Shown piece after piece: positions 13,761 to 60,683 of a DNA stretch of 64,000 nucleotides. Both the position numbers and the translations under genes were made by a program. Each line of letters starts with the position of its first letter. Within the stretch, counting starts at the first letter, position 1. The DNA lies in NCBI GenBank assembly GCA_014871385.1, contig CM026421.1:24521752-24585751 (forward strand). Direction: 5' to 3'. A model generated the notes under the pieces. The model was not told the DNA's origin. It did no database searches and saw only the letters and a program-made list of their open reading frames with translations. This DNA is from Ceratodon purpureus. Its lineage: Eukaryota > Streptophyta > Bryopsida > Pseudoditrichales > Ditrichaceae.

Positions 13761-15445
13761 TTGGCACATCCAGCTTAGTATGCTTCCCAGTCTAATTATG
13801 TATTCTAAATATAGAATGGGTTGAAGCGTTCTCGTCTGCACTCTTCCTCTCTTGCTTAGATTTTTGTCTACCTTTTCGAGATTCAGGCTGGATTGATTTC
13901 TTCAGGTTAGGCTTTGCATCTGATTCGGAGATACAAGGGTTGTCAATCTTGAAAGTTCATTGGCAGTTCATTGTTAGACGTCTTATGCTGATTGCAGTTC
14001 ATTGTTAGACGTCTTATACTGATTGCTCTTGTATTGTCTTCAACGTGCGAAGACGTCTTTTAAGATTTTTGAGCTCTCTGATGTGAAGGTCAGAGCAGCG
14101 CCGCTGAGAAGATTCCTTCTACTCACAGGGATCCTTGTCCCATTTACATGAGAGTAAGATAGCATCTGCTCATAGTTGTATGTTTGGTGCAATGTAGTAA
14201 GTACTGAGCAATATAGATTCAGCTGTCAACCATGTTATTTGAACCTCTTACTAAAGCATGTAAGTAGATAAAGCTTCCTGTGTCCTGCAAAACTGTTGTT
14301 TGAGGATGACTTGATCAGTCAGAATACTATTGCACAAGCCGGTTGTTGTGAGCTTGAGCCGAGGGTGCCGAAGTGTGGTTAAAGTGTTAAATTGTGGTCT
14401 TAAAATGCGAAATTATGGGCTGAATGTTGCTTGCACCTAGGAGTCATAAGGATAATTGTGTGTTGGCTTCGTTTCAGATCTCACCTACTAACACGTAACT
14501 CTGAACATGAGGTTGGTGTGGCCTCACACATGTGCACCTATTTTGGAATCAGGACTTGGATCTCGGATGAGATGAGTGAGGTTTTGGAAATAGAGCACGA
14601 AGAAGGTGGTCCCCGAATATTGATTTTCAGTATTATTCTTGCATATGCGTCTTGGTGAATGAGACCATGTGTACTGCTGGTGTGCAGTAATACGGCGAAA
14701 CTGTCAGTCTGTTCGGTGCAAGGGTTTATCGTGTACTTCGCAGGTGACTCCATACTCTGATCCCTTATGTGAAGCTCATGAATTCTCTTCGTATACAGTT
14801 CGAAGTGTATACCTGTGTCAACATAATGGTTATAATCACTCATTTTTTTATGCGAACACTTATTTTCCGTTTTAGTTTATAACGTCGGGGATTTTCACCA
14901 GGGTCGGTTATGAGAGCGGCGATTGGATGCTTCTGAAACCTCTAACTATTCATGCCACTTTATTAATTGCAGCTTCTTCGTAGGATGCAATCGGGCGGAA
15001 AAATTTCTGTCGAAGAGCTAAAGTAAAGTGCAGCTGCAGCCTACCGTAGCCACATTCTTGAGAAACTAGGTCAAAGAGGAAGTCATATATCGCAGGACTG
15101 CTGGAAAAATACATCGAAGATCAGGATCAGGTAAGCAGGTGCAAATCAAAGCTAGGTGATGAGGCATTGACGTGGACGTTGAGGAGGTGATTGTGAGAAA
15201 CATTTCAGTCAAAGAGCCAACTTTTAGTGCTGCGGCAGTCTACCGTGGCCACATAATTGAGGAACTAGATCTAAGAGGAAGTCTTATCTCGCAGGGCTGG
15301 TGGAAAATACATCGGAGATCGGCATCAGGAAAGGAGGTGCAGATCAAAGCTAGGTGATGAGGCATCGACGTGGACGTTGAGGGGGTGATTGTAATTCGTT
15401 TCCAGCAGTATTCCTGACAAACTACTTCAGTAGGGCTGCGACGCC
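13761..15445 (+). promoter_or_regulatory. putative spliced 5' leader of ROCO gene A
   Basis: ~1.7 kb with several splice-site-like sequences (acceptors such as TTTCTTCAG near 13.91 kb, CTTCGCAG near 14.74 kb and TTAATTGCAG near 14.97 kb). DNA identity to 35.7-37.156 kb is very high. A 75-aa ORF at 14431-14658 is identical in the two copies, but this may only reflect near-identical DNA. The leader contains a 199-bp tandem duplication that copy B lacks. Confidence 0.4.
15001..15394 (+). repeat. two-unit ~199-bp tandem duplication in the leader of gene A
   Basis: Units at about 15001-15199 and 15200-15394 share CTACCG(T)RGCCACAT, TCGCAGG(G)CTG and AAAGCTAGGTGATGAGGC in the same order. Copy B has a single unit at about 36912-37105. 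Copy B's unit is an open uORF-like frame (57 aa from an ATG at 36895). In copy A the equivalent frame is cut by TAA after E-E-L-K. Confidence 0.85.
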
Positions 15446-18400
15446 ATGGCGGGGTCATCTCCAGGCACCTCCGTAAAGCCCCCCTCGCTGGGTGGGGAGA
15501 GGAGCGGTGCACGTGAAGCATGTCCTTCTCCGTGCAACCGGGGATGTGCACCGCTCGAGTGCACTTTCGAGTTGCCCAAATCAATTCGTATTTCCGTAAC
15601 GCGGCGCTGGTTGGAGGAAATGAAGATCGGAAGGACTGACGAGGTGGGGAATAAGAAGGAGAACAGTACCCTTTCAAATTATAATGAGGGTAATAAGAAA
15701 ATTGAGTATCTAGAGGTGATACCTATTAAAGACGGGGATGGCGATTGGGGGGAGGGTTTTAAGCTCTCCTTGAGTAATTTTGTGCGCACGATTTCGTCCA
15801 GTACACAGGTGGAGGAAGTTTCGATAATTCTAGACTATGCCTCTCAAGAAATTTCGAGGGCCTTGGTCGAGTGTATGAAGACCATCCCCTCTCTCAAGTC
15901 TTTGCACCTTGAGGATATCCACTCACCTGGACTCTCGGTCTCGGATGCAGAAGCCATATTCAGTGCGTTTGGACCACACAGTACTTTCCAGACGGGCGGC
16001 GTTAAATTTGAATATGGTGTGGCTACAAAGGCAGCAACTGTAAAAGTGTTGGTGGATGCTTTGCTCCAAAATCAAGTCCTCCGTCAATTCTCGCTCTTTT
16101 ATCGCGGAGGCGACGATACATTGGACAGGGAGAAGGGGGTGGGCCACGAGGGAAGTGTGATGAGGGAGTTGAATAGGTATTTGCAGAGTCCCACCAATGT
16201 CCTCACAAAGTTAGATATCGTTGCAGTTGAGGATGATGAAGTTATACAGCTGGCAGACACACTTGGTCTCAACAAGAAACTCCAAGTATTGGTGATTAAG
16301 AGAGGAGATGATTTTTCGAACGACAGAGATATAGGTGTAGGCAGGATTGGTGAAGCATTGCTCACCAACACCGTCCTTGAAGAGCTTGGTTACGGTGGGT
16401 ATGCAAGGGTGGGGGTGGAGGAGATGGAAGCGTTGGTGGGGGCGTTGGTTCCGGATGCTGCCTCTCGACTCCAACCCAACACCCACCTCCACACCCTACG
16501 CATTTACAATAATGCTCTTCGAGGGAGGGAAGGGATGGAGCAGTTGGCCACTTTGCTACGATCCAACACCTCCTTGCTCCACTTGGACTTATCCAACTTA
16601 TACACTTTGAGAAGCAAAAGGGAGAATGTTTTCGAGTATGCTGAAATGCTCTTCACCGCATTACGGTGCAATACATCCTTGAAATCCTTGGATTTAACAG
16701 GTTGTTATGGAATTGGAGGGAAAGATGTGTTGGGGATGATTATGGACATGCTCTTGCACAATCGATCCTTGAAGGAGATTGAATTGAGAAGAACTCGTTT
16801 GGAAGAAGATGGGGATGCAGAGGTTGTATATGCGGAGTTGCGTGGACGAGACAAAACAATTGATGAAGAGGTGGAGAAGGTGATTCAAAAGATGGTTCGT
16901 GTGCCTCCAAATTCAGCACGGGTCTTTCTTTGTGGGAACCCCAAAGGAGGTATTTTAAGTTTTATTGATCTTAATGTTAATAGTCTATGAAGAGAATGTT
17001 GGATATTATTTCACATATGATTTTCATCAAGTACTTAAGTAGAAAAAATATCTAGTAATTGATCAATAATTTTGAAAATCTCTATGGAGAAATTATAATG
17101 TTGAATAGTTTTAATTGAAGTTGTTATTTGATAAGATCTAATAAGATTTTTAGTATTGAAATTAATTGATGTACATATTGTGAGTTAGAATTGGTCATCT
17201 CATCAATTATTTGCAAATGTGATGTACAATTTAATAAATCCATATGTGAGAATTTGATGAATGAAATTTTGAAAGTTTTAGTTTAGATGGTTTGACTTAT
17301 GTGTATTTGATTGGTGTAGGTAAAACAACTCTTTGCCAAAGATGGATAAATATTCAACCATTGGGGACTAGTGGATCCAAGGGTGTAGTGATTGATGGTC
17401 AATCTAAACTTTCAAGTCATGGAAGGAATAAGAATCGATTTAGTTCCTTCAGTCCCAAAAGGTTGATAAATAAGTTCACAAAATCCGCCAAGGCTACAGT
17501 ACTAGTACCATCATCAAGTGACCAAGAGCGAACACGAGGAATTGAAGTTCACAAAATGGTGTGGGCGGATAATATGAGCATTAACCTATGGGATATGGCA
17601 GGCCAAGAGGAATATCACACTTTTCATGATATGATGCTTCCAAATCGATCTCCAAATGGAGATTGTTGCTTCTACTTCATTGTTTGCAATCCTACAGAAG
17701 TTGTTCAAAATCTTAAAGAGGAAGTGCGAATGGAACACTTGGTGCAGGAGATCTCTTACTGGCTTGTTTTCATAGCTTCCAACACAAGAAGGTCCAAATC
17801 TTACTTGCCCCATGTGACCATCCTCATGACTCATCATGATTTGTGGGGAGGTGACAAAGATAAAGAGAAAATCTTTAGACACAAGTTGAAGGAAATCATC
17901 AAAGGGTTGAGGAAAAAGTTTGAGCTTTTCCTTGAATTTGACAAAGATAAGGAGTTTTTTGAGATGGATAATACAAGAGTACCTTATGATGATGCCACTG
18001 AGCTAAAACAACATGTACTTCAATATTTGAAGAAGATGTCATCAGACTTGCCTAAAATCTTGAAGGCCTCCGTGGATTTTCAATCCACCATTATGAAATG
18101 GAGTGGAGATTCTCATAAAGAACCGTTTGTGAAATGGGATGATTTCTCCAACTCTCTCTCTCAAGAGGTCATGGAGTTTAGATCTTTGAAGGATGTTGGC
18201 ATTGAATTATTGGAAAAGATCAAGAGGCATGTAGCGGAGTCCTTACACAATGGTGGCCATATCATGTATTTTGAGGAGATTGATGTGGTGATTCTCAATC
18301 CCCATTGGTTTTGCCAAAATATCATAGGCCACATTTTATACAACTGCTCTGAGTTGAATGACCAAGGAGCCATTGCAGCAAATGGTATCATATCTCGACA

Positions 18401-20252
18401 AGACTTCAAGGAACTAGTTGTAGATGGAGACACAATGTGTGGAGGTCATTTTGAGGAGATATTGAAGATCATGACAAAGCTTCAGATTTGTTACGAAGAC
18501 AAATCAGGTGATGAGAAATCTGGTAATGATAACATCATGATACCATCATTGTTGGATGGTAATCCAATTCCAACAAATTGGGAGGACGTTTTTGGCTCAT
18601 TACCAAAAGCAAACACTTATGTGGGCTTAAGATTGAAAACAGCGGATGAGAGCATCACCAAACTAACACAAGGATTCTTTCCACGCCTACAGGTACATGG
18701 ATTTTATAAATTAATGATATCAATGTTTGATTGTGTCTTTGCATGATCATGATGGGTTTCTTCGAAAGTTAACAGGGATCGGCAAAGCTTCGATATCAGT
18801 GGATTGTTTGTATCCTTCCATTGTTAAGCATAAATAATTAGTTATGAACTCTTCAATATCCATGTGCCTGTGCAGGTGTTCTTGCGCAACAAGTTCCCAA
18901 CCGAAACATACAGGCTTTATTCAAATATGAAAGCGTTCAAACTCTTTTCCAAGGGTATATCATTTATTGATGAAGGCGCTGAAATTTTCATTTTACTGGA
19001 CAGGGAAGATTCGATCAACATAATCTCACGATGTTGTGGAGGTGGAGATTCTGAGAATCGTCGTGTGCATAAGAAAATAATGGGGTATGTGAATGATCTT
19101 CGACAGACACCAACATTAGGTTGTCCTGGAGTGGTTTTTGAAGAACATATCATATTCCCCTCTTCTCTGGCAAATGCATTGGACGCCAACAACTTACGAT
19201 ATGTATCAAAGAAGGGACTCCTGGAGAAAGTATTGCGTGATGGTAACTTGAAATATGCACCATCTTGGGTTGATGAACAGAAGAAATGCAGATTTGTCTC
19301 TGCTAAAGAGCTATTGGGAGATGAAGAGTGGCATGATATTCTCCAAAGGCGAGAACAAAAGGTGATGACCATTGATAGGTTTTTGGATTCAATACTTCCA
19401 GCAGAGAATTCTACTGCACTAGCAGCAAGCATACCCTCCAACAGTGACCAGCTTGTTCGCATAGACTCCACGAAGAGTCTCATAATCGATAAAGTTCACT
19501 CATTGAAGCGGTTGATGCAACACAATCACAAGGAAGTGATGAAAAGATTGGATGAGTTGGAAAACAACATCATGGGTTTCCAGGAGAAATTAACTTCACG
19601 AGTGTGTTCCAACATTGACAACTTGATGGAGTGTTTGCTGGAACTGAACAAATCCAACATTCCCAAGTTGCCATATCTCATGGAATCTGCTAAGAGTGGT
19701 GGGAAACGCATCCTTCTCAAGATGGTACCAGGCCTCAAGTCTTACCAGCTTCAGTTCATGTGCGAGCACAGGGATGGTTTTCACTATGTCGAGAATCAAC
19801 CTGGCTGTGTAGTTGAGATTGGCGATGACCAAACGAGGAAATTTGGAATTGTGATGTATTGGGGGCTTACCATATCGGTAATGCTGCTGAAGGTGGGAGC
19901 TCATGTAACTGCTGGAATGGGGAGTATGGTGCCCGATTTGACAGCGCGGTTTGCATCCGTTCTCGATTCTCCCGGGCTACTCGATCTGGGCCAACCAAGT
20001 CGTGACATACTTGCGTGTCTTCCAGAGGAACTGAAGAAGGAGCCACGTATCAGCGTTAAGGATAATGAAGAAGCTAAAGCTCTGCTGGTTCAGATTTTGA
20101 AGAAGAAATGCCCATCTGGTGACATGCAGAAATTGTTCAAATTGACTCAGATGGTGTACACAAGTAAGTCCGACAACAAAGGCGGGCTCGCATGGCTTTG
20201 TGACGAGCACAGAGACAAGGGTGAACAAGATGGCTCACTCAGGAAGAGGTAG
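15446..20252 (+). CDS. LRR-Roc-COR (ROCO) GTPase, TORNADO1-like, gene A
   Basis: Exons 15446-16949, 17320-18692 and 18876-20252 give 1417 aa with consistent phases; plant TRN1 proteins are about 1380 aa. The start ATG has a strong context (GACGCCATGGCG). Residues ~75-480 are RNase-inhibitor-like leucine-rich repeats. The Roc GTPase follows: Walker A GNPKGGKT (497-504), switch-II DMAGQ (593-597) and G4 THHD (672-675). COR begins near residue ~765, with the typical MYFEEIDVVILNPHWF block. The C-terminal third has a predicted coiled coil (~1160-1215) and a conserved tail. ROCO proteins are GTP-regulated dimeric scaffolds; TRN1 acts in leaf and cell patterning. Compared with gene B, LRR and early exon 3 are strongly diverged while Roc is conserved. 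No kinase domain is present. Family is firm; biological role is unknown. Confidence 0.9.
16950..17319 (+). other. phase-1 intron inside the Walker A motif of gene A
   Basis: 370-bp AT-rich intron bounded by GTATTT and TGTAG. It splits a glycine codon (G|GT) between GNPKG and GKT. If retained, translation continues 13 codons (after G-G) and stops at 16990. This would give a 514-aa LRR-only protein. Gene B has a 370-bp intron at the same place. Confidence 0.85.
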
Positions 20253-22070: not shown

Positions 22071-25000
22071 AAATACTATGTGCCAGAAGAAACTTGATAA
22101 AGTTACATTAGTGAAAAAGCATGTTTATGCTAAGTTGTTTTTTACAAAATTTCTTGATATATAAGATATACTGTGGTTGTATATTGATTCCTTGTGCAGT
22201 CAAAAATCAATAACAAAAATTATCCTCGCAAGCCACTTCCACATCCAAGATTACAATTTTCCTAACAAAATAAAACACCAAATGTATAAAGAAAAATGAC
22301 AATTTAATCCAGAAACAACAAGTGACTCCTTTATTTGCATGTCAAACGCAAAGCAATATTTTAAAAACCAATCGCACAATAAAATTGTATATAAGAGAGA
22401 ATCTAAAGAATCAAATGATTTTCTTGGATTTGAGGATACCTTAAGGTTGTGGATTATTAACATTACTCTTGATAGCTTGGATGGAAAATGATGAGGTATT
22501 ATTCTTTGGAAGGGTGAAGAAACATGGCTTGTTATATGTTTTGAGAAAGTTTTTGTCCAAGAGCTTTCAACGATATATTACATCAAAGAATCAAAAAAAA
22601 TCTTCATGTGTAGTTCCAATATGAAGAATTCAAAAACAACATTGTTAGAATATCAGCACACTTAGAATACTTCTTACTTGAATAATTTGAAAAACTAAGA
22701 GATTAAGAACCCCTTTTGGATCGGAAGACCACATTCATCACCACTAACTTTTGATAATCTATACGTGTCTTAACTCGGATTCTAAGGTCACTTTGTATGT
22801 CCTTTGAATGTATCTATAATTGAAAACACATTTCCTTTTAAGGATCTTTGAGAGCCAAGAGCCTCATGGAGGGGATTGATTTCAAATTTTGTTTGATAAT
22901 TTTGATGGAGAATTACAAGATTATTGTTTTTGGAAAATGTGGCTTGTTATATGTTTTTGGAAAGTCTTCAAGGGTTTATCATTTACATATCAGAATAAAT
23001 ATTCGAAGAAAATCTTTATGTGTAGTCTCTACATAAAGAATAAAAACATCAGAGTCTAAATAGAAGCACATTTTTTAGAATTTTAGGGATGACATATTTG
23101 ATCACAATGTGTTATTTAATAAGTGGAAGACTTATGAACAAATGTTATGTGAAAAGTGTTAAATTCAAACCTCATTTATAGATGTGATATTTCCATAGAC
23201 AGTATGGAAAGGTGTATCTTATTACTATAACCAATTAACTACAATGTATCTATTTAAATTTCATAAAGATGATATTAGAGACCTTTGAAAAGATTGCAGA
23301 ATAATAGTATTGCAAAGATGTTTATTACATCTTTTCATATCTCTAGAAGATAATTACAAAGTGGATACTTTCATGCAAAAGACAAGATTTAATTTCAAAG
23401 AAGTTACATCTTGTAGAACTTGCTACACTTGATAGACCCCTTTAGGAGTTTCATTAGAAATCATTGTGCTTCCTAAATATCTTTACACTTTGTGACTCCC
23501 ATTTTCACCTCGCATAATTGATTTGAATTTACGTTACATTTGTATTTGAATTTGCATTATAAAAACAAAGATTATAATTGTTATGAAATTATTACCCAAC
23601 CCCTTGAATTACGCTATATTCCATGGTAAAGCTTACATAGATACATTTAAAAATAGAATTCAACCTTTTCATGCCAGATGTAATCTACTTTTGGATGTAA
23701 GAAAACTCACTTACCAATGTTGCATCAGTTTAGAATTTTATTTTTAACCCCTAAAGTTCTGAGGGTATTTTTCATCAAAACTGCCTCAAAACAGCCCCTC
23801 TTCAAAGCAAGGTGGATTTTGCAAACTTGGGGTCTTTTCTAGTACATCTAACCGTAAGATCTTGTAGCTTACTCCTATGTCTACATGTCCACCAAATCTC
23901 ACACACTCATTCCTCACCAGTTGCAAGATTGTAACGTTCAAATTTAAAAAACAAGTTTTTTTTCCCTGCGGAAAAAGGGGACAGCAGAGTTTTGAAGGCC
24001 CAAAAAACCATTTTTCAAAGTAGATATGGAATTAATTTCTCCTTATTATTGTTCCTAAGTGAGTTAGGTACATGTCCAAAAAATATAATATTCAAAAAAA
24101 TTGTGGAAGGTTTCCAAAAAATCATTTTCCACTAGGGGGTATGCTGAAAGTCACATACAAAGGCCGTTTTTTGACAAGAAAAATAGCATATGAAAAGTTC
24201 TTGGATTGAAAATCAGAACAGCGGAAACATGCTCTACTGCCTTCTCTATAAACAGAAATTTTTATTTTTGAAAAATATCAAAATCTCAATTTTTGGTGGA
24301 ATTTCAAAGTTTTGTCATTGGGCAGATTTCGGCAGTTTTGGGCAGTATTGGGCAGTTTTGGGCAGTTTTGGGCAGAATTTGCTGCATTCGTAGTGGCTTA
24401 GGAAATTTCAGCAGCTGCCCCAGGAGTAGCGTTTGACACTTAAACCTTCATAACTTTTGATCTCGATGTTGGAATTGGAAAATAAAAATATGCACACGGA
24501 GCTCTCGGAACGGCACACCCCCATTTAAAGTTTCAAAAAATCCCGATTTAAATTGAAGTCGTAGGTACATGCCCAAATTCTAAAAAAGCCTAAATGTGGA
24601 AGATTGTCCTTTAGGGGTTAAATGTAGATGTCAAAGAATACTCCGTCTTGGATTTGAAAGAGCCTTGGTTAGGAGTTTTTGTCACTTTTTTTGGTTTTTT
24701 TTTTCATTTCTGTTTTTCAAATAAACTTACTAATGTTTTTTCATCTTATTCATTTTCATCCTTTTTTTTAAATTTCTTTACTTCTTACAAAATATTTTTC
24801 CTTTTCTTTGTGTTAAAAAAATTGTCATATGTGTTAACCTTCTACATTAATAAGTGCCATTTATTATGTAGTCATATTTTCAAAGACATCGTTGTTACGT
24901 TCTGGTTTTTAATGGATTTAGGTAAAAAGGTCAATTTTTTGTAAAACAATTCAATTTTTTTAACAAAATGAATTTTTTTTGTTCCTTGCTCACTGCTTGC

Positions 25001-27420
25001 TGCTCATAAGATAGCATTGATGAAGTTATAAAGCAAATGAATGTATGAATTATAGCATATAATTTTATTTTTTAAATATTATTATCATAAGCATTATTTA
25101 AATGTAACTCATGTTCTTTTTTAATGTAGAGCTTCAAATTTGCATTATAGCCTGGGCATCTATATAATTCTCTTGTTTTTGCTTTTTGTGCTAAAAAGCT
25201 ATAGTAGTATGATTTTTATGAGTGAGTCAAATTTATTTTTAGTTTAGTGCTTTTCGCAAAAGAAAGATCATCCTTGTATATAGTTTGATACACATCTTTT
25301 CGACATTTTCTTACAGAAATCCTATGAATATTTGAATTAAGATTTAAGACCACAGTAGATTTTGTTAAAATATATGACCTCAATAACATGATCTTTAATA
25401 TCTACAAATTCCAAAATTGGATGATAGATTTAAGTTCAAGAATCTCTTCATTTTAAAAAGAAATTTATACATTATTTTATTTCATTATTATTTTTAATGC
25501 ATATTAGTAATGTATCATCTTGAAATCAAGATTGAATTGAAGGGCCACTTTAAATTGTGAACGCGTTGAAAGGGCAACCATTATTTTCAGACCAAATTAA
25601 GGCAAAAGTGTCAACTGTTAGGCTTAAAGTATACATTAAAATACTTCAATCAAGGCCTTCCGCTGGTCTTATTTTTAAATCTATAGGTGTAAATATTAAT
25701 TTGGAACATGCGAAAATTTCTCAACAATAAATTCATTGTTATGTCAAAGTTATGACTGATTGAAAGTCAACTTATGTTGGACCACCATGTGTATAGTGCC
25801 TATGGTTGTAAAAGGGTTAATTACAAGAGCGGAGCATGAGCTTGAGCATGACCAAGCCTTAGTAGCCCACGATCCTTTTCTTCTTTTGCATGTTTTATTA
25901 AAAAAATAGTCCATATCCTTTAATTTGGCTTGCTTAAAATTTAAGGACCAAGTCTTGGCTGAGAAGCCTCAGAAGTTTTGGAGAGTTTTCCACACTATAG
26001 TGCTAAAATCCCCAAAAAATGTTGCCATGTATGTTTAATAGGAGGAGGTGATGGTCTGGTTGGCGTATCCAAAAAAGTTGTCTCTTATGTAATTTCATTC
26101 TATATTAATATACTAAACAAATTTATTTTTTAATCATAATGAAGCAAGGCTTCACCAAATGTGGTTTTAGTTTTCTACACTTATAATGTATTAAAGAACA
26201 AAATTTGATTATAATCAAAGACATTTAAGTAATTTTATTTGTTCTTTTAGTTGAAAGGTAAGCAATGTCTCACTTAGCATCCGTAATAAAATCAAGCATT
26301 TGATATATGGAACAATTTGATTTCAATTTTTATTTTTTTTTAAATTTGACCTACATTTAGTTGTATAGAGTATTAAATATATTATATTATGAATATACTA
26401 TACTTAAAAACATGCATTATAATGCATGTAAATCCCTAAATTTTAGCATTTTTTTGACATCTATAAATGGATTAAGAAATAAATAAATTCAATCAAACAT
26501 TTTTATAGAAAAACATTTTAATTCCATTAAGGACTGCAATTTCTTTTTTCCCATTTTAGGATCATTTTACTTGATTAGAATGAACAAATTACATAAACTT
26601 TGGAGCTTATAGAAAAAAAATTCTAATTAGTGTATCAAAAGTGAAACCCTGAGGAAACCATTGTTTGAAGCAATGGCTTTGCTCAAGGCTTTTGTCTATA
26701 GTATAAAGGCCGGGAGGGCAAAATTTGAAAGTTTTTGTCAACTCATTAGTGGGATCCAAAGACTTTTAAACACTTTAAATGTGCCTTAAATAGTTGAGAA
26801 TGCCAAAAATTAACATTCATTCAAAAGATATAATTTAAAAATTGTTTTTGGAAACCATCATTTTAATCCAATTTCATGTAGGTTTACCTTGGCTATATGT
26901 AGTTCAATGGTTGTTTAATCAATCACATCCTTTATTTGAATCTCATATTCAATTTCTATTTTTTTAAATGGCCTTGAAATCTCCAATTATTTGAAATAAA
27001 TTTAGATATAAAGAACAAATCATAAATCACTTCACTGGTTTTGCCATCCAAATTTTCAGAATGATTGAAATATTTTAGATATTTTGGATTTATCTCTATG
27101 TCACATATATTGGAATTGTGTATGCATTACCTCCAAGCACAATCATATTTGAAGAAATGCTCAAAACACAAACACTACATGTGAATCATGTATAAATTCC
27201 AATCTTCAGAATTTATCTTAAATATAAACAAAATCACCACCCACAAAAAATAGCGCAATACCACTAGAAATAAGGCAAATCAATTGCTAAGACTAGACAT
27301 TGCACCAAAGATTGAGAGTAGCAAATATGTGGCAGTATGGAAGTAGATAAAACCAACAAAACTCTTTCCTACGTTTTGGAAGCACATAACTTTGATACCC
27401 TTTTCGTATCAGTTGCTAGA
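22071..27420. other. AT-rich right arm of copy A, no gene recognised
   Basis: ~5.3 kb, very AT-rich, about 95-97% identical by eye to 44.08-49.43 kb. ORFs such as 22848-23036, 24648-24944 and the relic near 25.78-26.04 kb are short, AT-driven, and in part frame-broken between copies. It may be decayed transposon sequence, but no reverse transcriptase, integrase or transposase motif could be read. Confidence 0.5.
24317..24376 (+). repeat. short 10-bp tandem repeat (GGCAGTTTTG), copy A
   Basis: About six imperfect units of GGCAGTTTTG. The copy B equivalent (46334-46382) has about one unit fewer, so the array length changed after duplication. Confidence 0.8.
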
Positions 27421-27599
27421 ACTTCATCATTTTGCGACCTTTAAAAATTCCAAAAATGGTTCAATCCAACTCCAAATGTACTTGATTTCTTGGGGTCCAT
27501 AATCTCTAGAATTGCTAGATTCTTGTGTGATTTTCCCACAGCAACTGTACGAAAAACTGGATCCGAATGCGACGGAATCTGATGCTGCTCGAATCATCG

Positions 27600-27900
27600 A
27601 AAACTCGACCCATGACAAAGTAAGATGAGCAACAGCGCCGAAGGACAGATGACAGAAGATATTGTCACCGCACGGCCCAGCAGATGCCACAAGCAACCAT
27701 TCACATCTCCATCCATTGCCTCTGGATCGCTGCAAAGCCATGACGAATACTCTAAATTATTGAGTGGAGATGCTCGGTCACATGGCCTCGGTCACAGTTC
27801 TGTAAAGTACTACGCCGTCTGGACAGATCAGTACACGGGTGCAGAATTTGAAGAGGTAGGAAGAATATTTTCCCACACTCAAGGAAAGAGTTCCACATAA
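27600..27900 (+). pseudogene. orphan ROCO 5' module (first-exon-like), right end of copy A
   Basis: An ATG at 27625 opens 91 codons whose first ~55 resemble the 13.28 and 35.22 kb modules: an S-N-S-x-E-G-Q start, a D/E-I-V-T motif, and Y-S-K-L-L-S-G-D-A-R-S-H-G. No LRR or Roc exon follows before copy B begins. It is probably the remnant 5' end of a further ROCO paralogue, or a dispersed promoter module. Similarity at this site marks the duplication junction. Confidence 0.45.
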
Positions 27901-37156: not shown

Positions 37157-40100
37157 ATGGCGGGGTCATCTCCAGGCACATCCGTAAAGCCCCCCTCGCT
37201 GGGTGGGGAGAGGAGCGGTGCACGTGAAGCATGTCCTTCTCCGTGCAACCGGGGATGTGCACCGTTCGAGTGCACTTTCCAGTTGCCCAAATCAATTCGT
37301 ATTTCCGAAACGCGGCACTGGTTGGTGGAATATATGAAGATCAGATGGACTGACGAGGTGGGGAATAAGAAGGAGAACAGTACCCTTTCAAATTCTGAAG
37401 AGGGTAAAAAGAAGAATGAGAATCTAGAGGTGATGGCTAAAGACTGGAATGGCGATTATGGGAAGGTGTTTGAGCTCTCCTTGAGTAATTTTGTGCGCAC
37501 GATTTCGTCCAGTACACAGGTGGAGGAAGTTTCGATAAATCTAGACATGGTCTCTCAAGAGACTTCGAGGGCCTTGGGTGAGTGTATGAAGACCATCCCA
37601 GCTCTCAAGTCTTTGCACCTTGAGAATATCTGGTCATCTAAACTCTCGGTCTCGGATGCAGAAGCCATATTCAGTGCGTTTGGACCACACAGTACTTTCC
37701 AGACGGGCCGCGTTGAATTTTATAATCATGAGCCTACAGAGGCAGCAATTGTAAAAGTGTTGGTGGATGCTTTGCTCCAAAATCAAGTCCTCCGTCAATT
37801 AACGCTCGAATATAGGGGAGGTGGTATATCAAGCAACGAGGGAAGTGTGATGCGGGAGTTGAATAGGTATTTGCAGAGTCCCACCAATGTCCTCACAGAG
37901 TTACATATGGTTGGAGTTGAGGATGGTGAAGTTATACAGCTGGCAGACACACTTGGTCTCAACAAGAAACTTCAACAATTGGTGATAGAGAGAGAAGGTG
38001 AATCCCTCTCCTGTGAAGGTATAGGCAGGATTGGTGAAGCACTGCGCACCAACTCCGTCCTTGAAGAGCTTAATATTGATGGGTACTATACAAGGGTGGG
38101 GGTGGAGGAGATGGAAGCGTTGGTGGGGGCGTTGGTTCCGGATGCTGCCTCTGGACTCCAACCCAACACCCACCTCCACACCCTAAGCTTTGGACAGGTT
38201 GCACTTGAAGGGAGGGAAGGGATGGAGCAGTTGGTCACTTTGCTACGATCCAACACCTCCTTGCTCCACTTGGATTTATTTTACTTGAGCACTTTGAGAA
38301 GAGGAAGTGAGAATGTTGTCGAGTATGCTGAAATGCTCTTCACTGCATTGCGGTTCAACACATCCTTGGAATCCTTGAATTTAAGAGGGTGTGATGAAGT
38401 TGGAGGGAAAGATGTGCTCGGGATGATTATGGACATGCTCTTGCACAATCGATCCTTGAAGGAGATTAAATTGGTATCAACTCGTTTGGAAAAAGATGGG
38501 GATGCGGAGGTTGTATATGCGGAGTTGCGTGGACGAGACAAAACAATTGATGAAGAGGTGGAGAAGGTGATTCAAAAGATGGTTCGTGTGCCTCCAAATT
38601 CAGCACGGGTCTTTCTTTGTGGGAACCCCAAAGGAGGTATTTTAAGTTTTTTTGATTTTAATGTTAATAGTCTATGAAGAGAATGTTGGATATTATTTCA
38701 AATATGTTTTTCATGAAGTAGAAAAAATATTTAGCAATTGATCAATAATTTTGAAAAATTCTATGGAGAAATTACAATGTTGAATAGATTTAATCGAAGT
38801 TGTTATTTGATAAGATTTAATAAGATTTTTAGTATTGAAATTAATTGATGTACATATTGTGAGTTAGAATTGGTCATCTCATCAATTATATGCAAATGTG
38901 ATGTACAATTTAATAAATCCATGTGTGAGAATTTGATGAATGAAATTTTGAAAGTTTTAGTTTAGGTGGTTTGACTTATCTGTGTTAGCACATTTGATTG
39001 TTGTAGGTAAAACAACTCTTTGCCAAAGGTGGATAAATATTCAACCATTGGGGACTACTGGATCCAAGGGTATAGTGATTGATGGTCAATCTAAACTTTC
39101 AAGTCATGGAAGGATTAAGAACCGAGTTAGTTCCTTCATTCCCAAAAGGTTGATAAATAAGTTCACAAAATCCACCAAGGCTACAATACTAGCACCATCA
39201 TCAAGTGACCAAGAGCGAACACAAGGAATTGAAGTTCACAAAATGGTGTGGGAGGATATGAACATTAACCTATGGGATATGGCAGGCCAAGAGGAATATC
39301 ACACTTTTCATGATATGATGCTTCCAAATCGATCTCCAAATGGAGATTGTTGCTTCTACTTCATTGTTTGCAATCCTACAGAAGTTGTTCAAAATCTTAT
39401 AGAGGAAGTGCGAATGGAACACTTGGTGAAGGAGATCTATTATTGGCTTGTTTTCATAGCTTCCAACACAAGAAGGTCCAAATCTTATTTGCCCCATGTG
39501 ACCATCCTCATGACTCATCATGATTTGTGGGGAGGTGACAAAGATAAAGAGAAAATCTTTAGATACAAGTTGAAGGAAATCATCAAAGGGTTGAGGAAGA
39601 AGTTTGAGCTTTTCCTTGAATTTGACAAAGATAAGGAGTTTTTTGAGATGGATAATACAAGAGTACCTTATGATGATGCCACTGAGCTAAAACAACATGT
39701 ACTTCAATATTTGAAGAAGATGTCATCAGACTTGCCTGAAATATTGAAGGCCTCCGTGGATTTTCAATCCACCATTATGAAATGGAGTGGAGATTCTCAT
39801 AAAGAACCGTTTGTGAAATGGGATGATTTCTCCAACTCTCTCTCTCAAGAGGTCATGGAGTTTGGATCCTTGAAGAATGTCGGCAATCAATTATTGGAGA
39901 AGATCAAGAAGAATGTAGCGGAGTCCTTACACAATGGTGGCCATATCATGTATTTTGACGAGATTGATGTGGTGATTCTCAATCCCCATTGGTTTTGCCA
40001 AAATATCATAGGCCACATTTTATACAACTGCTCTAAGTTGAATGACAAAGGTGCCATTGCTGAAGGTGGTATCATATCTCGACAAGACTTCAAGGAACTA

Positions 40101-41972
40101 GTCATAGATGGAGACACAATGTGTGGAGGTCATTTTGAGGAGATATTGAAGATCATGACAAAGCTTCAGATTTGTTACGAAGACAAATCTGGTGATGAGA
40201 AATCTGATGATGAGAAAGCTGGTGATGAGAAATCTGGTGAAGACAAATTAGGTGATGAGAAATCTGGTAATGAGAACATCATGATACCATCATTATTGGA
40301 TGGTAATCCAATTCCAACAAATTGGGAAAAAGTTTTTGGTTCATCACCAAAAGCATACACTTATGTGGGCTTAAGCTTGCAAACAGCAGATGAGAGCATC
40401 ACCAAACTAACACGGGGGTTCTTCCCACGCTTACAGGTTTATAACTCTTCTCTCTTTTGATTTCAATGTTTGCTTGTATCCTGTAATATCAAATTATCAA
40501 TCTCCATAAGATTATATGGCTAGCTGAAGTTTGTTGCTGGTTCCTACCTTGAATCCTCTAAACTTTTGTCCATTCGGTTGCTTATTCTCTGCAATGTCCA
40601 CGTGCAGGTGTATCTGCGCAACAAGTTCCGAAGTCCCAAAACTTACAGGCTTTATTCAAATGCAAAAACCTTGAGTCTGTTTACCAAGGGAATATCGTTA
40701 ATTGTGGATGGTGTTGAGCTTTTCATTTTACTGGACATGGAAGATTCCATCAACATTATCTCACGATGTTGTGGAGGTGGAGATTCTGAGAATCGTCGTG
40801 TGCTTAAGATGATGATAGACTGTGTGAACGATTTTCGACAAACACCAACATTTGGGTGTCCTGGAGTGGTTTTTGAAGAACATGTCATATTCCCTCATTC
40901 TGTGGAGAATGCATTGGGCGCCAAGAAATTACAATGTATATCAAAGAAACAACTCCGGGAGGAAGTGGTGGACAAAGTATTGCGGAGAGGTGATTTTACA
41001 TATGTACGAGATTGGGTCGATGAGAAGGGTGTTTCCAGATACGTAGATGGTAAAGAGCTCTTGGGAGAGAATGAGTGGCGAGCTATTTTGCTGGGGCGAA
41101 TCAAAAAGCTCACGGAAATGGACAAGGATGTGGAATCAGAACTTTCAGCAAAGAATTCAACTGCACCGACCGCAAGCGAACCCTCCAACAGTGACCTTGG
41201 TCGCAATGACTCCAATGTGAAGAGGTTCATAGATGAGAAATTTGGCTCAATGAAGCGGTTGATGCAACACAATCACAAGGAAGTGATGACAAGGTTGGAT
41301 GAGTTGGAAAAGAACATCATGGGTTTCCAAGCGAAATTAACTTCACGAGTGTGTTCCAACATTGACAACTTGATGGAGTGTTTGCTGCAACTGAACAATT
41401 CCGACATTCCCAAGTTGCCATATCTCATGGAGACTGCTAAGCGTGGTGGGAAAGGCATCCTTCTCAAGATGGTACCAGGCCTCAAGTCTTATCAGCTTCA
41501 GTTCATGTGCGAGCACAGGGATGGTTTTCACTATGTCGAGAATCAACCTGGCTGTGAAGTTCAGATTGGCAATGACCAAACGAGGAAATTTGGAATTGTG
41601 ATGTATTGGGGGCTTACCATATCAGTAATGCTGCTGAAGGTGGGAGCTCATGTAACTGCTGGAATGGGGAGTATGGTGCCCGATTGGTCGAGATATTTTG
41701 CATTGGCTCTCGATTCTCCCGGGCTACTCGACCTGGGCCAACCAAGAGGTGACATACTTGAGTGTCTTCCAGAGGAACTGAAGAAGGAGCCACGTATCAG
41801 CGTTAAGGATAATGAAGAAGCTAAAGCTCTGCTGGTTCAGATTTTGAAGAAGAAATGCCCATCTGGTGACATGCAGAAATTGTTCAAATTGACTAAGGTG
41901 GTGTACACAAGTAAGTCCGGCAACAGAGGGATCGCATGGCTTTGTGACAAACACAGAGACATGGGTGAATAA
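37157..41972 (+). CDS. LRR-Roc-COR (ROCO) GTPase, TORNADO1-like, gene B
   Basis: Exons 37157-38636, 39007-40436 and 40608-41972 give 1424 aa, with the same structure and phases as gene A. The order is LRRs (~75-470), Walker A GNPKGGKT (489-496), DMAGQ (584-588), THHD (663-666), COR with MYFDEIDVVILNPHWF, then a coiled coil and conserved tail from about residue 1170. It differs from gene A mainly at solvent-exposed LRR strand positions and in the first ~200 residues of exon 3. Exon 2 carries a 20-codon expansion of a D-E-K-S-G-type acidic repeat inside the COR-coding part. All GTPase signature residues are intact, so both copies look functional. Its specific role is unknown. Confidence 0.9.
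38637..39006 (+). other. phase-1 intron inside the Walker A motif of gene B
   Basis: 370 bp, ~95% identical by eye to the gene A intron, splitting the same glycine codon. Read-through ends at a stop at 38675-38677, giving a 506-aa LRR-only product. Confidence 0.85.
40180..40277 (+). repeat. coding minisatellite (15-bp unit, D-E-K-S-G type) in gene B
   Basis: About six imperfect units of GGTGATGAGAAATCT or GAAGACAAATCT type, encoding an acidic, lysine-rich insert. Gene A has about two units at 18495-18536. The 60-bp difference keeps the frame. Confidence 0.9.
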
Positions 41973-43950: not shown

Positions 43951-46900
43951 CGTTAACAAATTTTAGCATGATCCATTGATTTCAAAGTTACTTCCATGTA
44001 ATTTTTTATATCTTTGGACAAAAGGGAGAAGAAATTGTTGTTAACTTTAATAACAAATTTTTTTATTTTTTTTTTAAAATACTATTTGCCAGAAGAAACT
44101 TGATAAAGTTACATTACTGAAAAAGCATGTTTATGCTAAGTTGTTTTTTACAAAATTTCTTGATATATAAGATATATTGTGGTTGTATAATGATTCCTTG
44201 TGCAGTCAAAAATCAAAAACAAAAATTATCCTTGCAACCCGCTTCCACATCCAAGATTACAATTTTTCCAACAAAATAAAACACCAAATGTATAAAGAAA
44301 AATGATAATTTAATCCACGAACAACAAGTGACTCCTTTATTTGCATGACAACGCAAAGCAACAGTTAAAAACCCAATCTCACAATAAAATTGTACATAAG
44401 AGAGAATCTAAGGAAACAAATATTTGAAACAAAATGCTTTTCTTGGATTCGAGGATAGCTTAAGGTTGTGGATTATTGACATTACTCTTGACAACTTGGA
44501 TGGAAAATGATAAGGTATTATTTTTTGGAAGGGCGAGGAAACATGGCTTGTTATATTTTTGGGAAAGTTCTCGTCCTGGAGCTCCCAAAGATGTATTACA
44601 TCAAAGAATCGAAAAAAATCTCCATGTGTAGTTCCAATATGAAGAATTCAAAACAACATTGTTAGAATATCAGCACACTTAGAATACTTCTTACTTGAAT
44701 AATTTGAAAAACTAAGAGATTAAGAACCCCTTTTGGATCGGAAGACCACATTCATCACCACTAACTTTTGATAATCTATACGAGTCTTAACTCGGATTCT
44801 AAGGTCACTTTGTATGTCCTTTGAATGTATCTATAATTGAAAACACATTTCCTTTTAAGGATTTTTGAGAGCCAAGAGCCTCATGGAGGGGATTGATTTC
44901 AAATTTTGTTTGATAATTTTGATGGAGAATTACAAGATTATTGTTTTTGGAAAATGTGGCTTGTTGTATGTTTTTGGAAAGTCTTCAAGGGTTTATCATT
45001 TACATTTGAGAATAAATATTCGAAGAAAATCTTTATGTGTAGTCTCTACATAAAGAATAAAAACATCAGAGTCTAAATAGAAGCACATTTTTTAGAATTT
45101 TAGGGATGACATATTTGATCACAATGTGTTATTTAATAAGTAAAAGACTTATGAACCAATGTTATGTGAAAAGTGTTAAATTCAAACCTCATTTATAGAT
45201 GTGATATTTCCATAGACAGTATGGAAAGGTAATCCTATTAATATAACCAAGTAACTACAATGTATCTATTTAAATTTCATAAAGATGATATTAGAGACCT
45301 TTGAAAAGATTGCAGAATAATAGTAGTGCAAAGATTTTTATTACATCTTTTCATATCTCTAGAAGATAATTACAAAGTGGATACTTTCATGCAAAAGACA
45401 AGATTTAATTTCAAAGAAGTTACATCTTGTGGAACTTGCTACACTTGATAGACCCCTTTAGGAGTTTCATTGGAAATCATTGTGCTTCCTAAATATCTTT
45501 ACACTTTGTGAATCCCATTTTCACCTCGCGTAATTGATTTGAATTTACGTTACATTTGTATTTGAATTTGCATTATAAAAATAAAGATTATAACTGTTAT
45601 GAAATTATTACCCAACCCCTTGAATTATGCAATATTCCATGGTAAAGCTTACATAGATACACTTAAGAACAGAATTCAACCTTTTCATGCCAGATGTAAT
45701 CTACTTTTGGATGTAAGAAAACTCACTTATCAATGTTGCATCAGTTTAGAATTTTATTTTTAACCCCTAAAGTTCTAAGGGTATTTTTCATCAAAACTGC
45801 CTCAAAACAGCCCCTCTTCAAAGCAAGGTGGATTTTGCAAACTTGGGGTCTTTTCAAGTACATCTAACCGTAAGATCTTGTAGCTTACTTCTATGTCTAC
45901 ATGTCCACCAAATCTCACTCACTCATTCCTCACCAATTGCAAGATCGTAACGTTCAAAGTTAAAATACAAGTTTTTTTTCCCTGCAAAAAAAGGGGACAT
46001 CAGAGTTTTGAAGGCCCAAAAAACCATTTTTCAAAGTAGATATGGAATGAATCTCTCCTTATTATTGTTCCTTAGTGAGTTAGGTACATGTCCGAAAAAT
46101 ATCATATTCAAAAAAGTTGTGGAAGGTTTCCAAAAATTCATTTTCCACTAGGGGGTATGCTGTAAGTCACATACAAAGGCCGTTTTTTGACAAGAAAAAT
46201 AGCATATGAAAAATTCTTGGATTGAAAATTGGAATAGCGGAAACATGCTCTACTGCCTTCTCTATAAATAGAAATTTTTATTTTTGAAAAATATCAAAAT
46301 CTCAATTTTTGGTGGAATTTCAAAGTTTTGTCATTGGGCAGATTTATGCAGTTTTGGGCAGTTTTGGGCAGTTTTGGGCAGAATTTGCTGCATTTGTAGT
46401 GGCTTAGGAAATTTCAGCAGCTGCCCAACGAGTAGCGTTTGACACTTAAACCTTCATAACTTTTGATATCAATGTTGGAATTGGAAAATAAAAATATGCA
46501 CACGGAGCTCTCGGAACGGCACACCCCCATTTAAAATTTCAAAAAATCCCGATTTAAACTGAAGTCGTAGGTACATGCCCAAATTCTAAAAAATGCCTAA
46601 ATGTGGAAGATTGTCCTTTAGGGGTTAAATGTAGATGTCAAAGAATACTCAGTCTTGGATTTGAAAGAGCCTTGGTTAGGAGTTTTTCTCACTTTTTTTG
46701 GTTTTTTTTTTCATTTCTGTTTTTCAAATAAATCTACTAATGTTTTTTCATCTTTATCATTTTCATCCTTTTTTTTAAATTTCTTTACTTCTTACTATTT
46801 TTTTTCCTTTTCTTTGAGTTAAAAAATTTGTCATATGTGTTAACCTTCTACGGTAATAAGTGCCATTTATTATGTAGTCGTATTTTCAAAGACATCGTTC

Positions 46901-49430
46901 TTACGTTCTGGTTTTTAATGGAATTAGGTAAAAAGGTCAATTTTTTGTAAAAGAATTCAATTTTTTTTACAAAATGAATTTTTATTGTTCCTTGCTCACT
47001 GCTTGCTGCTCATAAGATAGCATTGATGAAGTTATAAAGCAAATGAATGTATGAATTATAGCATATAATTTTATTTTTTAAATATTATTATCATAAGCAT
47101 TATTTAAATGTAACTCATGTTCTTTTTTAATGTAGAGATTCAAATTTGCATTATAATCTGGGCATCTATATAATTCTCTTGTTTTTGCTTTTTGTGCTAA
47201 AACACTATAGTAGTATGATTTTTATGAGTTAGTCAAATTTATTTTTAGTTTAGTGCTTTTTGCAAAAGAAAGATCATCCTTGTATATAGTTTGATACACA
47301 TCTTTTCGACATTTTCTTACAGAAATCCTATGAATATTTGAATCAAGATTTAAGACCACAGTAGATTTTGTTAAAATATATGACCTCAGTAACATGATCT
47401 TTAATGTCTACAAATTCCAAAATTGGATGATAGATTTAAGTTCAAGAATCTCTTCATTTTAAAAAGAAATTTATGCATTATTTTATTTCATTATTATTTT
47501 TAATGCATATTAGTAATGTATCATCTTGAAATCAAGATTGAATTGAAGGACCACTTTAAATTGTGAACGCCTTGAAAGGGCAACCACCATTTTCAGACCA
47601 AATTAAGGCAAAAGTGTCAACTGTTAGGCTTAAAATATACATTAAAATACTTCAATCAAGGCCTTCAGCTGGTCATATTTTGAAATCTATAGGTGTAAAT
47701 ATTAATTTGGAACATGCAAAAATTTCTCAATAATAAATTCATTGTTATGTCAAAGTTATCACTGATTGAAAGTCAACTTATGTTGGACCACCACGTGTAT
47801 AGTGCCTATGTTTGTGAAAGGGTTAATTACGAGAGCGGAGCATGAGCATGAGCATGACCAAGCCTTAGTAGCCCATGATCCTTTTCTTCTTTTGCATGTT
47901 TTATTAGGAAAAAAGTCCACAACCTTTAATTTGGCTTGCTTAACATTTAAGGACCAAGTCTTGGTTGAGAAGCCTCAGAAGTTTTGGAGAGTTTTCCACA
48001 CTATAGTGCTAAAATCCCCAAAAAATGTTGCCATGTATGTTTAATAGGAGGAGGTGATGATCTGGTTGGCGTATCCAAAAAAGTTGTCTCTTATGTAATT
48101 TCATTCTATATTAATATACTAAACAAATTTATTTTTTAATTATAATAAAAAAAGGCTTCACCAAATGTGGTTTTAGTTTTCTACACTTATAATGTATTAA
48201 AGAACAAAATTTGATTATAATCAAAGACATTTAAGTAAATTTATTTGTTCTTTTAGTTCAAAAGGTAAGCAATGTCTCACTTAGCATCCGTAATAAAATC
48301 AAGCATTTGATATATGGAACAATTTGATTTCAATTTTTTATTTTTTAAAAATTTGACCTACATTTAGTTGTATAGAGAATTAAATATATAATATTATGAA
48401 TATACTATACTTAAAAACATGCATTATAATGCATGTAAATCCCTAAATTTTAGCATTTTTTTCTTCATCTATAAATGTATTAGAAAATAAATAAATTCAA
48501 TAAAACATTTTTATAGAAAAACATTTTAATTCCATTAAGGACTGCAATTTATTTTTTTTCCATTTTAGGATCATTTTACTTGATTAGAATTAACAAATGA
48601 GATAAACTTTGGAGCTTATAGAAAAAAAAATTCTAATTAGTGTATCAAAAGTGAAACCCTGAGGAAACCATTGTTTGAAGCAATGGCTTTGCTCAAGGCT
48701 TTTGTCTATAGTATAAAGGCCGAGAGGGCAAAATTTGAAAGTTTTTGTCAACTCATTAGTGGGATCCAAAGACTTTTAAACACTTTAAATCTGCCTTAAA
48801 TAGTTGAGAATGCCAAAAATTAACATTCATTCAAAAGATATAATTTAAAAATTGTTTTTGGAAACCATCATTTTAATCCAATTTCATGTAGGTTTACCTT
48901 GGCTATATGTAGTTCAATGGTTGTTTAATCAATCACATCCTTTATTTGAATCTCATATTCAATTTTTATTTTTTTAAATGGCCTTGGAATCTCCAATTAT
49001 TTGAAATAAATTTAGATATAAAGAACAAATCATAAATCACTTCACTGGTTTTGCCATCCAAATTTTCAGAATGATTGAAATATTTTAGATATTTTGGATT
49101 TATCTCTATGTCACATATATTGGAATTGTGTATGCATTACCTCCAAGCACAATCATATTTGAAGAAATGCTCAAAACACAAACACTACATGTGAATCATG
49201 TATAAATTCCAATCTTCAGAATTTATCTTAAATATAAACAAAATCACCACCCACAAAAAATAGCGCAATACCACTAGAAATAAGGCAAATCAATTGCTAA
49301 GACTAGACATTGCACCAAAGATTGAGAGTAGCAAATATGTGGCAGTATGGAAGTAGATAAAACCAACAAAACTCTTTCCTACGTTTTTGAAGCACATAGC
49401 TTTGATACCCTTTTCGTATCAGTTGCTAGA
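43951..49430. other. AT-rich right arm of copy B, no gene recognised
   Basis: Near-identical to 21.69-27.42 kb apart from the two copy A MITEs. It includes the GGCAGTTTTG micro-array at 46334-46382. A 92-aa ORF at 47766-48044 is interrupted in copy A. Confidence 0.5.
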
Positions 49431-49599
49431 ACTTCATCATTTTGCGACCTTTAAAAATTCCAAAAATGGTTCAATACAACTCCAAATGTACTTGATTTCT
49501 TGGGGTCCATAATCTCTAGAATTGCTAGATTCTTCTGTGATTTTCCCACAGCAACTGTACGAAAAAAAGGATCCGAGTGCGACGGAATCTGATGCTGCT

Positions 49600-49790
49600 T
49601 GAATCATCGAAAACTCGACCCATGACAAAGTAAGATGAGCAGCAGCGCCGAAGGACAGAAGACAGAAGAAATTGTCACCGCACGGCCCAGCAGATGCCAC
49701 AAGCAACCACTCACATCTCCATCCATTGCCTCTGGATCGCTGCAAAGCCATGACGACTACTCTAAATTATTGAGTGGAGATGCTCCACTA
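49600..49790 (+). pseudogene. orphan ROCO 5' module, truncated at the duplication edge
   Basis: An ATG at 49635 opens a frame closely matching the 27625 module for ~50 codons (S-S-S-A-E-G-Q start, Y-S-K-L-L-S-G-D-A). Homology then stops abruptly at 49.79 kb, where different GC-rich DNA begins. It is the right border of the duplication or of an insertion. Confidence 0.5.
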
Positions 49791-58190: not shown

Positions 58191-58620
58191 TAGTATGGGA
58201 TGTATGGGTGATGTGTATGGGATGTATGGGTGATGTGTATGGGATGTATGGGTGATGTGTATGGGATGTACGGGTGATGTGTATAGGATGTATGGGTGAT
58301 GTGTATGGGATGTACGGGTGATGTGTATGGGATGTATGGGTGATGTGTATGGGATGTACGGGTGATGTGTATAGGATGTATGGGTGATGTGTATGGGATG
58401 TATGGGTGATGTGTATGGGATGTATGGGTGATGTGTATGGGATGTATATGCGATGTGTACGTGATGTGTATGTGATCTGAATGTGATGTGTATGTGATCT
58501 AAATGTGATGTGTATGTGATCTGAATGTGATGTGTATGAGATGTGTATGCGATCCGAATGTGATGTGTATGCAATCTGAATGTGATGTGTATGCGATCTG
58601 AATGTGATGTGTACGTAATG
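58191..58620. repeat. 22-bp minisatellite
   Basis: About 11-12 units of TGATGTGTATGGGATGTATGGG from ~58194 to 58450, then a degenerate continuation (GATGTGTATGTGATCTGAAT) to ~58620. Variant units (TACGGG versus TATGGG, ATAGG versus ATGGG) recur in a partly regular order. The 273-codon minus-strand ORF here is a by-product of the repeat. Confidence 0.92.
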
Positions 58621-58969
58621 TGCATTCTGAGAGAATATATGATCTGTATGTGAAAGATAAAAACTATTAAAAAAACAATGAAATAAGTTTTATAACATTT
58701 ACGAAAAAAAGAATAGAGAAGTAGAAAAAAAGACTTAGCATGAAAGAAAGGAATGACAAGCATAAAGTAAAATTCCAATGCAAGGTTGTATAAGTTGAAA
58801 AGAGTGTAGAAGGAATGGATTCTGTGCTGAATGAGAGTGAATAGGCATGACCTGGAACTTATTGCAAGGCCCCGAGCAGACTTTACAGGCGCACCATGGA
58901 ATCTGGGAATCAATGCTCTGACACTAAGAAACTGGCTTTACTTTCTTTATAATAATCGAACTATTGGAT
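58621..58969. other. spacer between minisatellite and satellite
   Basis: A-rich DNA. It contains one copy of a GGCCCCGAGCAGA motif at ~58868. No gene is seen. Confidence 0.5.
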
Positions 58970-60275: not shown

Positions 60276-60683
60276 GAAAACCAACTAATCTTGGTCATCA
60301 GTCCATGTACATTTGGATCCTACTGTGCTCGGTCCTACACGGTCCTTTTCAGGATTTCAAAATTGCTTTGTTATGTAATTGCTGGAATGCATGCTATCAG
60401 ACATTTAATAAAGGCTGAGCATACTCGATGTTGAGTTCAATCAAGTAGAATGATTTACACACTAATTGCATCTCTTACTCTTACTGGGTGAGACATAAGG
60501 TTTAGAACATAGAGCTCATTATCATAACATTGACGAAGTTGCGTGACGAATGCTAAGAGATGCATGACATTCTGAAATTCAGAGACTTCTCTGCTACTAA
60601 AATGAACAACAAAAATGGGAGGAGATGTTAATAAAGTAGAAAGGTACATAAAAGTTCTCAATCTACTCGCTACCGCCTCTAAC
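60276..60683. other. probable 3' flank of the methyltransferase-like gene
   Basis: AT-rich, no ORF of note. A fragment resembling the satellite (GGAGGAGATGTTAATAAAGTAGAAAGG) lies near 60618-60645. Confidence 0.4.

Follow-up and report, generated by a model that had tools for sequence, protein, structure and literature searches.

Two tandem genes of the moss Ceratodon purpureus, here called A and B, encode LRR-ROCO proteins in which the concave face of the LRR domain is under strong diversifying selection, with the helical backs of the repeats and the GTPase motifs conserved. We consider it probable that A and B belong to a moss LRR-ROCO family whose members act as variable recognition receptors, shaped by diversifying selection and by recombination within the family. 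In land plants, variable intracellular immune recognition is ascribed to NLRs.

Both genes lie in the window, the 64,000-base stretch analysed here (bases 24521752-24585751 of contig C1), and their features are collected in Table 1. The spliced product of A agrees letter for letter with KC19_1G298400 (1417 residues), as does that of B, over its full length, with KC19_1G298500 (1424 residues); the coordinates proposed for exon 1 of each gene in the initial annotation were correct. A and B are carried by a tandem duplication of about 22 kb (5494-27775 and 28387-49785), whose outer parts are 77-99% identical and whose inner 5.7-kb block (22071-27775 / 44077-49785), 96% identical, contains no long open frame. 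Some 90 kb past B, and so no longer in the window, there is a third copy, 1G298900; further family copies were found on C1, C2 and C10. The paralogues are partly clustered, with segments exchanged among them, and include a pseudogene (L004; G000:C2:10876646-10881173), in which an early stop ends exon 1 and exon 2 is split between frames, as well as a fragment (L008). Exon 2 of B carries an in-frame acidic, GDEKS-like repeat at 40200-40275, adding 20 residues that are missing in A and in six other aligned paralogues. Elsewhere in the window, we observed an array of about 16-20 copies of a 22-base tandem repeat (58193-58622), a purine-rich array of tandem units about 190 bases long (59341-60280; 4 copies, 94% matches) and a 414-codon open frame on the minus strand (55515-56759) with no Pfam match at E 0.01.

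Table 1. Features of genes A and B in window coordinates
Feature	Positions	Strand	Basis
Gene A leader: 199-base tandem duplication, single in B	14998..15392	+	
Gene A exon 1: N-terminus, 11 LRRs and start of Walker A motif	15446..16949	+	Spliced product = KC19_1G298400
Gene A residues 48-107: second variable stretch, ahead of LRR	15587..15766	+	Entropy; selected sites 48, 101
Gene A LRR domain: residues 108-470, 11 repeats	15767..16855	+	Motif register coincides with AlphaFold2 strands
Repeat 1 variable strand and loop (+2 to +9)	15815..15838	+	
Repeat 2 variable strand and loop	15899..15922	+	
Repeat 3 variable strand and loop	15998..16021	+	
Repeat 4 variable strand and loop	16085..16108	+	
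Repeat 5 variable strand and loop	16208..16231	+	
Repeat 6 variable strand and loop	16286..16309	+	
Repeat 7 variable strand and loop	16382..16405	+	
Repeat 8 variable strand and loop	16493..16516	+	
Repeat 9 variable strand and loop	16580..16603	+	
Repeat 10 variable strand and loop, less variable	16685..16708	+	
Repeat 11 variable strand and loop	16775..16798	+	
Gene A intron 1: within Walker A codons; 95% identical to B intron 1	16950..17319	+	
Gene A exon 2: Roc GTPase and COR-A	17320..18692	+	Pfam Roc and COR-A above cut-off in whole protein
Gene A exon 3: remainder of COR, coiled coil and conserved C-terminal region; exchange with other paralogues in its first part	18876..20252	+	
Gene B exon 1: N-terminus and LRR	37157..38636	+	Spliced product = KC19_1G298500
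Gene B exon 2: Roc and COR-A	39007..40436	+	
Gene B exon 3	40608..41972	+	

A and B possess the N-terminal LRRs, the Roc GTPase and the COR region following Roc by which LRR-ROCO proteins are recognised. Their parts run from a poorly ordered N-terminus through 11 LRRs, Roc and COR-A to a predicted long helix followed by a C-terminal region that is conserved; the model of the exon 3 product is unreliable (mean pLDDT 63, pTM 0.37). Pfam searches with P0003 recovered Roc (32.0 bits; cut-off 27), followed by COR-A (39.7 bits; cut-off 35.3); COR-B was not found at E 0.1, and NB-ARC was absent from the Pfam matches. The Pfam LRR_6 match fell below its cut-off (15.7 against 23.4 bits), and the 11 repeats were recognised from their motif register and the structural model, with LRR folds identified by Foldseek. 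This register was placed by eye from the LxxLxL motif, and the strands of the AlphaFold2 model fall on it (mean pLDDT 74; LRR mostly above 80). The repeats are predicted to form a ribonuclease-inhibitor-like horseshoe: the 50 Foldseek matches listed include ribonuclease inhibitor and NLRP proteins as fold neighbours (E 2.5e-10 to 1e-7), and the ribonuclease inhibitor matches include complexes with ribonucleases. The G1, G3 and TH.D motifs are kept in all eight proteins of the clade to which A and B belong (hereafter the window clade).

Comparison of the two genes bore out the initial claim that about a fifth of the LRR residues differ, against about 8% in the Roc exon: we counted 72 replacements in 353 LRR residues (20%) and 35 in the 457 residues of exon 2, which encodes Roc and COR-A (8%). 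As had also been proposed, the replacements are concentrated at strand positions—peaking at repeat offsets +4 (6 of 11 repeats), +6 (9 of 11), +7 (6 of 11), +9 (7 of 11) and +11 (7 of 11)—and the helical backs are nearly unchanged, with zero replacements at offsets 16-18 and 23-25, one repeat being set one residue late in this count. The LRR is not the most divergent part of the pair: exon 3, overlooked in the initial annotation, differs at 114 of 449 residues (25%). The asserted conservation of introns and flanks held in part. Nucleotide divergence is 2.9% in the near flanks (102 of 3458 sites), 3.1% in the 5' flank, 2.7% in the 3' flank, 3.5% in the distant 3' flank and 5.0% in intron 1 (18 of 362), against 10.3% in exon 1 (152 of 1474), but intron 2 is 44% divergent and just 56% identical. 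Exon 2 diverges by 4.2% and exon 3 by 22% in its first part and 7.3% in its second. The conservation of intron 1 is, moreover, a property of the A-B pair only, since identity drops to 58-79% in the other 14 pairs of six paralogues.

We then compared eight Ceratodon proteins in 28 pairs, drawn as paralogues rather than as an allelic series from two assemblies with the tags KC19 and M758, which we take to be strains R40 and GG1. The concave set was defined as +4, +6, +7 and +9 of LxxLxLxx (44 residues) and was picked after the columns were seen. Pairs differ on average at 68% of this set (range 43-79%), at 13% of helix-side residues (8-19%) and at 25% of Roc-COR residues (2-31%). Mean entropy reaches 1.75 bits at +4 and 2.13 at +6, with 0.12 at +3 and 0.39 at +5, and stays below 0.5 from +16 to +26; at +4 and +6, repeat 10 shows little variation. 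None of 362 circular register shifts attains the entropy of the concave set, and two of 362 attain that of the textbook xxLxLxx set. Even in the near-allelic pair P0005/P0006, 19 of 44 concave residues differ, against 20 of 893 residues after the LRR. Positions of at least 1.5 bits in this paralogue alignment number 50 of 363 in the LRR, 42 of them at +4 to +12; as the N-terminal stretch (18 of 107) and Roc (39 of 245) vary too, the LRR is not set apart by the entropy count taken by itself. The corresponding LRR stretch of moss TORNADO1 (TRN1) has 16 such positions, merely 3 of which are on strands.

Codon models were fitted, with our own short likelihood implementation, to six intact paralogues from one genome; eight loci had been fetched, and the pseudogene and the fragment were excluded. 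Over the six genes, omega is 4.64 for the concave set and 0.62 for all other LRR positions (omega = 1 rejected for the concave set, p 7e-33), and the textbook xxLxLxx set gives 2.81 against 0.66 (p 1e-16). When the synonymous scale was left free, as a single factor multiplying the branch lengths of the remaining LRR codons, concave omega was 5.90 (p 5e-11) and the synonymous scale at concave codons was 0.88, not different from 1, so that no raised synonymous rate is seen. A and B alone gave 6.2 against 0.81 (omega 1 rejected, p 2.6e-10), or a concave omega of 4.4 when the concave set was given a branch length of its own (p 0.0095). Resolved by offset, omega is 0.00 at 0 and 0.16 at +3, runs through 4.41, 0.68, 9.94, 4.28, 3.43 and 3.94 from +4 to +9, lies at about 1 to 2 from +10 to +15, and falls to 0-0.4 from +16 to +26 except for 0.93 at +19. 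Concave omega stayed at 4.05-4.49 under four other topologies, one of them a star, and at 4.08-5.09 in six leave-one-out runs. With no positions set beforehand, M2a improved on M1a over exon 1 (2dlnL 224) and returned 31 sites whose posterior exceeds 0.95 by naive empirical Bayes; the LRR holds 29 of them, 26 at +4 to +12 and none from +16 on. The exon 2 control (first 372-377 codons; omega 0.40) showed no gain from M2a and no selected site. The conditions named in the initial annotation as refuting its reading did not hold: strand residues predicted to be exposed have an omega far exceeding 1, the Roc exon does not, and the changes are spread unevenly by offset. The original observation is confirmed, in a stronger form than was claimed, and its interpretation is supported.

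A search with P0011 returned 161 relatives, of which 120 were listed, including P. patens TORNADO1 (P0023), the Ceratodon TRN1-like proteins P0024 and P0025 and many Sphagnum proteins; at least 12 entries among the matches listed carry the KC19 tag. We compared the window clade (n = 8) with two other Ceratodon sets (n = 3 and 2), two Sphagnum sets (n = 10 and 6; several species, some proteins partial), moss TRN1 (n = 5) and 47 seed-plant TRN1 proteins hand-picked from the same 120 listed of 161 relatives, the additional Ceratodon and Sphagnum clades being compared as proteins only. Ceratodon P0015, P0021 and P0040 and the Sphagnum pairs P0041 and P0033, P0064 and P0067, and P0066 and P0082 fell outside this comparison. 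Mean pair differences at +4 and +6, on the helix side and after the LRR are 0.79, 0.13 and 0.23 in the window clade, 0.67, 0.06 and 0.13 in the Ceratodon 5G clade, 0.91, 0.14 and 0.19 in the Ceratodon 9G-11G pair, 0.72, 0.07 and 0.16 in Sphagnum I, and 0.70, 0.12 and 0.16 in Sphagnum II. On these protein alignments, the variable pattern is repeated in four further moss clades, two of them from Sphagnum. Moss TRN1 gave 0.02, 0.14 and 0.17 and seed-plant TRN1 0.29, 0.24 and 0.23. Moss TRN1 serves as a negative control: it shares the architecture and is similar in overall divergence, and yet conservation is strongest at its concave residues.

A tree of the Roc-COR region places 13 Ceratodon proteins in a single clade (100/99) next to moss TRN1 and the five variable Sphagnum proteins that it includes in a second clade (100/100), with seed-plant TRN1 standing apart; the deeper order is unsure because of long branches. 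The label "TORNADO1-type", which the initial annotation had given to the pair, fits the architecture and not the orthology: Ceratodon has separate TORNADO1-like genes whose concave face is conserved, an exclusive grouping of the window clade with moss TRN1 is rejected (p-AU 3e-49, with the long-branch warning applying elsewhere in the tree), and the window clade lacks the conserved concave face of moss TRN1. One TORNADO1-like gene, KC19_1G299500 (P0024), lies outside the window and, judging by its tag alone, is separated from the variable cluster by roughly a dozen gene numbers.

Patchy gene conversion had been raised as the alternative to selection; exchange among paralogues does occur, as a second process beside selection. 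Synonymous divergence between A and B is 0.114 in the LRR against 0.029 in the near flanks (p 1e-8), and therefore either the LRR was imported from another copy or its surroundings were homogenised with one. The nearest relative shifts from window to window inside the LRR and likewise along exon 3, where M758_1G291000 comes closest to the windows of B (residues 921-1100; 88-95%) and M758_1G290900 to those of A (1041-1220; 76-90%); such exchange would account for the excess of exon 3 differences over the LRR. The leader of A is 97% identical to that of 1G298900, but intron 1 only 59%, against 95% between A and B. That conversion acted alone, the A-B differences in the LRR being old paralogous ones with no excess of replacements, is nonetheless very unlikely: exchange moves stretches, whereas omega shifts codon by codon from +3 to +6, concave codons have the same synonymous rate as the remaining LRR codons, and the four other topologies leave the concave estimate above 4. 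Site tests can be inflated by recombination among paralogues, but codons next to each other have a common genealogy and are nonetheless divided between 4-10 (+4, +6) and 0.2-0.7 (+3, +5); because these codons are interdigitated within the strands, exchange does not explain the replacement excess. The synonymous-scale and offset results thus refute conversion as the sole cause and leave it as a contributor. Relaxed constraint, by which exposed strand residues would be free to vary in paralogues losing their function, is more improbable still. The family does include a pseudogene and a fragment, and exposed residues are generally freer than buried ones, but relaxation yields omega up to 1 rather than 4-10, and conservation persists on the helix side (omega mostly 0-0.4 at +16 to +26), in the GTPase motifs and, in moss TRN1, at the very same positions. 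We give the least credence to an artefact of alignment, assembly or annotation, even though assembly errors can arise in a tandem duplication as nearly identical as the one that holds A and B: the gene models match public ones, both exons are open throughout, the pattern recurs in the second Ceratodon assembly and in Sphagnum proteins, and misalignment is unlikely because invariant codons flank the strand codons.

A concave face with such an omega profile is best read as a putative contact surface for a changing partner. This partner might be a fast-changing moss self protein, tracked in mating, kin or developmental signalling or in genetic conflict. Such a reading seems to us unlikely, though the sequence pattern speaks of a changing partner and not of which, and TORNADO1, a related plant ROCO, is described as a developmental gene (introduction of PMC11378527). 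TRN1 itself keeps its concave face, and hypervariable LRR positions of plant NLRs coincide with effector contacts, as described for RPP1 (PMC8226289), which suggests immunity as the commoner cause. From these patterns we infer a recognition-receptor role for A and B; its most likely form would be innate immune sensing parallel to NLRs, a step further from the data than recognition as such. As recognition receptors, A and B would bind a changing intracellular partner—a pathogen effector, a microbial product or a variable self protein—on the concave face and relay this binding to the GTPase switch of Roc-COR and to the conserved C-terminal portion. The contact-surface reading, taken with GTPase motifs kept in eight of eight proteins, points to such a ligand-gated switch. 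Selection would favour replacements at contact residues, and duplication and segment exchange would spread and recombine the variants.

By a narrow balance, we favour the wider proposal that mosses have, beside NLRs and receptor kinases, a second intracellular hypervariable receptor repertoire based on LRR-Roc-COR GTPases. This repertoire would have expanded in two or more distant lineages (Ceratodon and Sphagnum) and would evolve in the manner of hypervariable NLRs (hvNLRs) and brown algal ROCOs, with the face of moss TORNADO1 near-invariant. If this is true, a non-NLR GTPase family with omega of 4-10 on its binding face would constitute a second class of variable recognition in mosses, and the brown algal case would become a recurrent solution. 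The result also names candidate contact residues, for which moss TORNADO1 supplies the negative control, in a moss species whose laboratory strains have been sequenced, and bears on the purpose of ROCO LRR domains. No account of hypervariable ROCO genes in mosses was found in the literature searched, a search with most subscription journals outside its scope.

The published precedent is the brown algal LRR-ROCOs, described as candidate immune receptors (Teng et al. 2024, PMC11378527; Zambounis et al. 2012, cited there), an expanded family with positive selection on four concave LRR residues. The moss family resembles them, as portrayed in that paper, in its LRR-Roc-COR order, its expansion and the positive selection on the concave face. 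The two differ in gene structure and in the source of variants: each 23-residue brown algal LRR occupies its own 72-base exon, which is shuffled and alternatively spliced (PMC11378527), whereas all 11 of the longer moss repeats share one exon and moss variants arise by duplication, replacement and segment exchange. With TORNADO1, the moss proteins share the LRR-Roc-COR architecture and about 35% identity over Roc-COR, but they form a separate clade, and the concave difference at +4 and +6 is 79% in the window clade against 2% in TRN1 (five moss proteins). With hvNLRs, as defined in PMC8226289, they share periodic entropy peaks on LRR strands and clustering with segment exchange. The hvNLR threshold of 10 or more positions of at least 1.5 bits is passed by the LRR count of the moss paralogues, but also by Roc and by the LRR stretch of moss TRN1, and so does not discriminate here; unlike hvNLRs, they have no NB-ARC domain that we could find, their switch is a Roc-COR GTPase, and the moss alignment is one of paralogues rather than an allelic series. 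Finally, the LRR domains of ribonuclease inhibitor and of NLRP proteins, among the 50 Foldseek matches listed, share the horseshoe fold, but sequence identity of 12-20% and a TM-score of 0.36-0.52 by query length give no sign of recent common origin.
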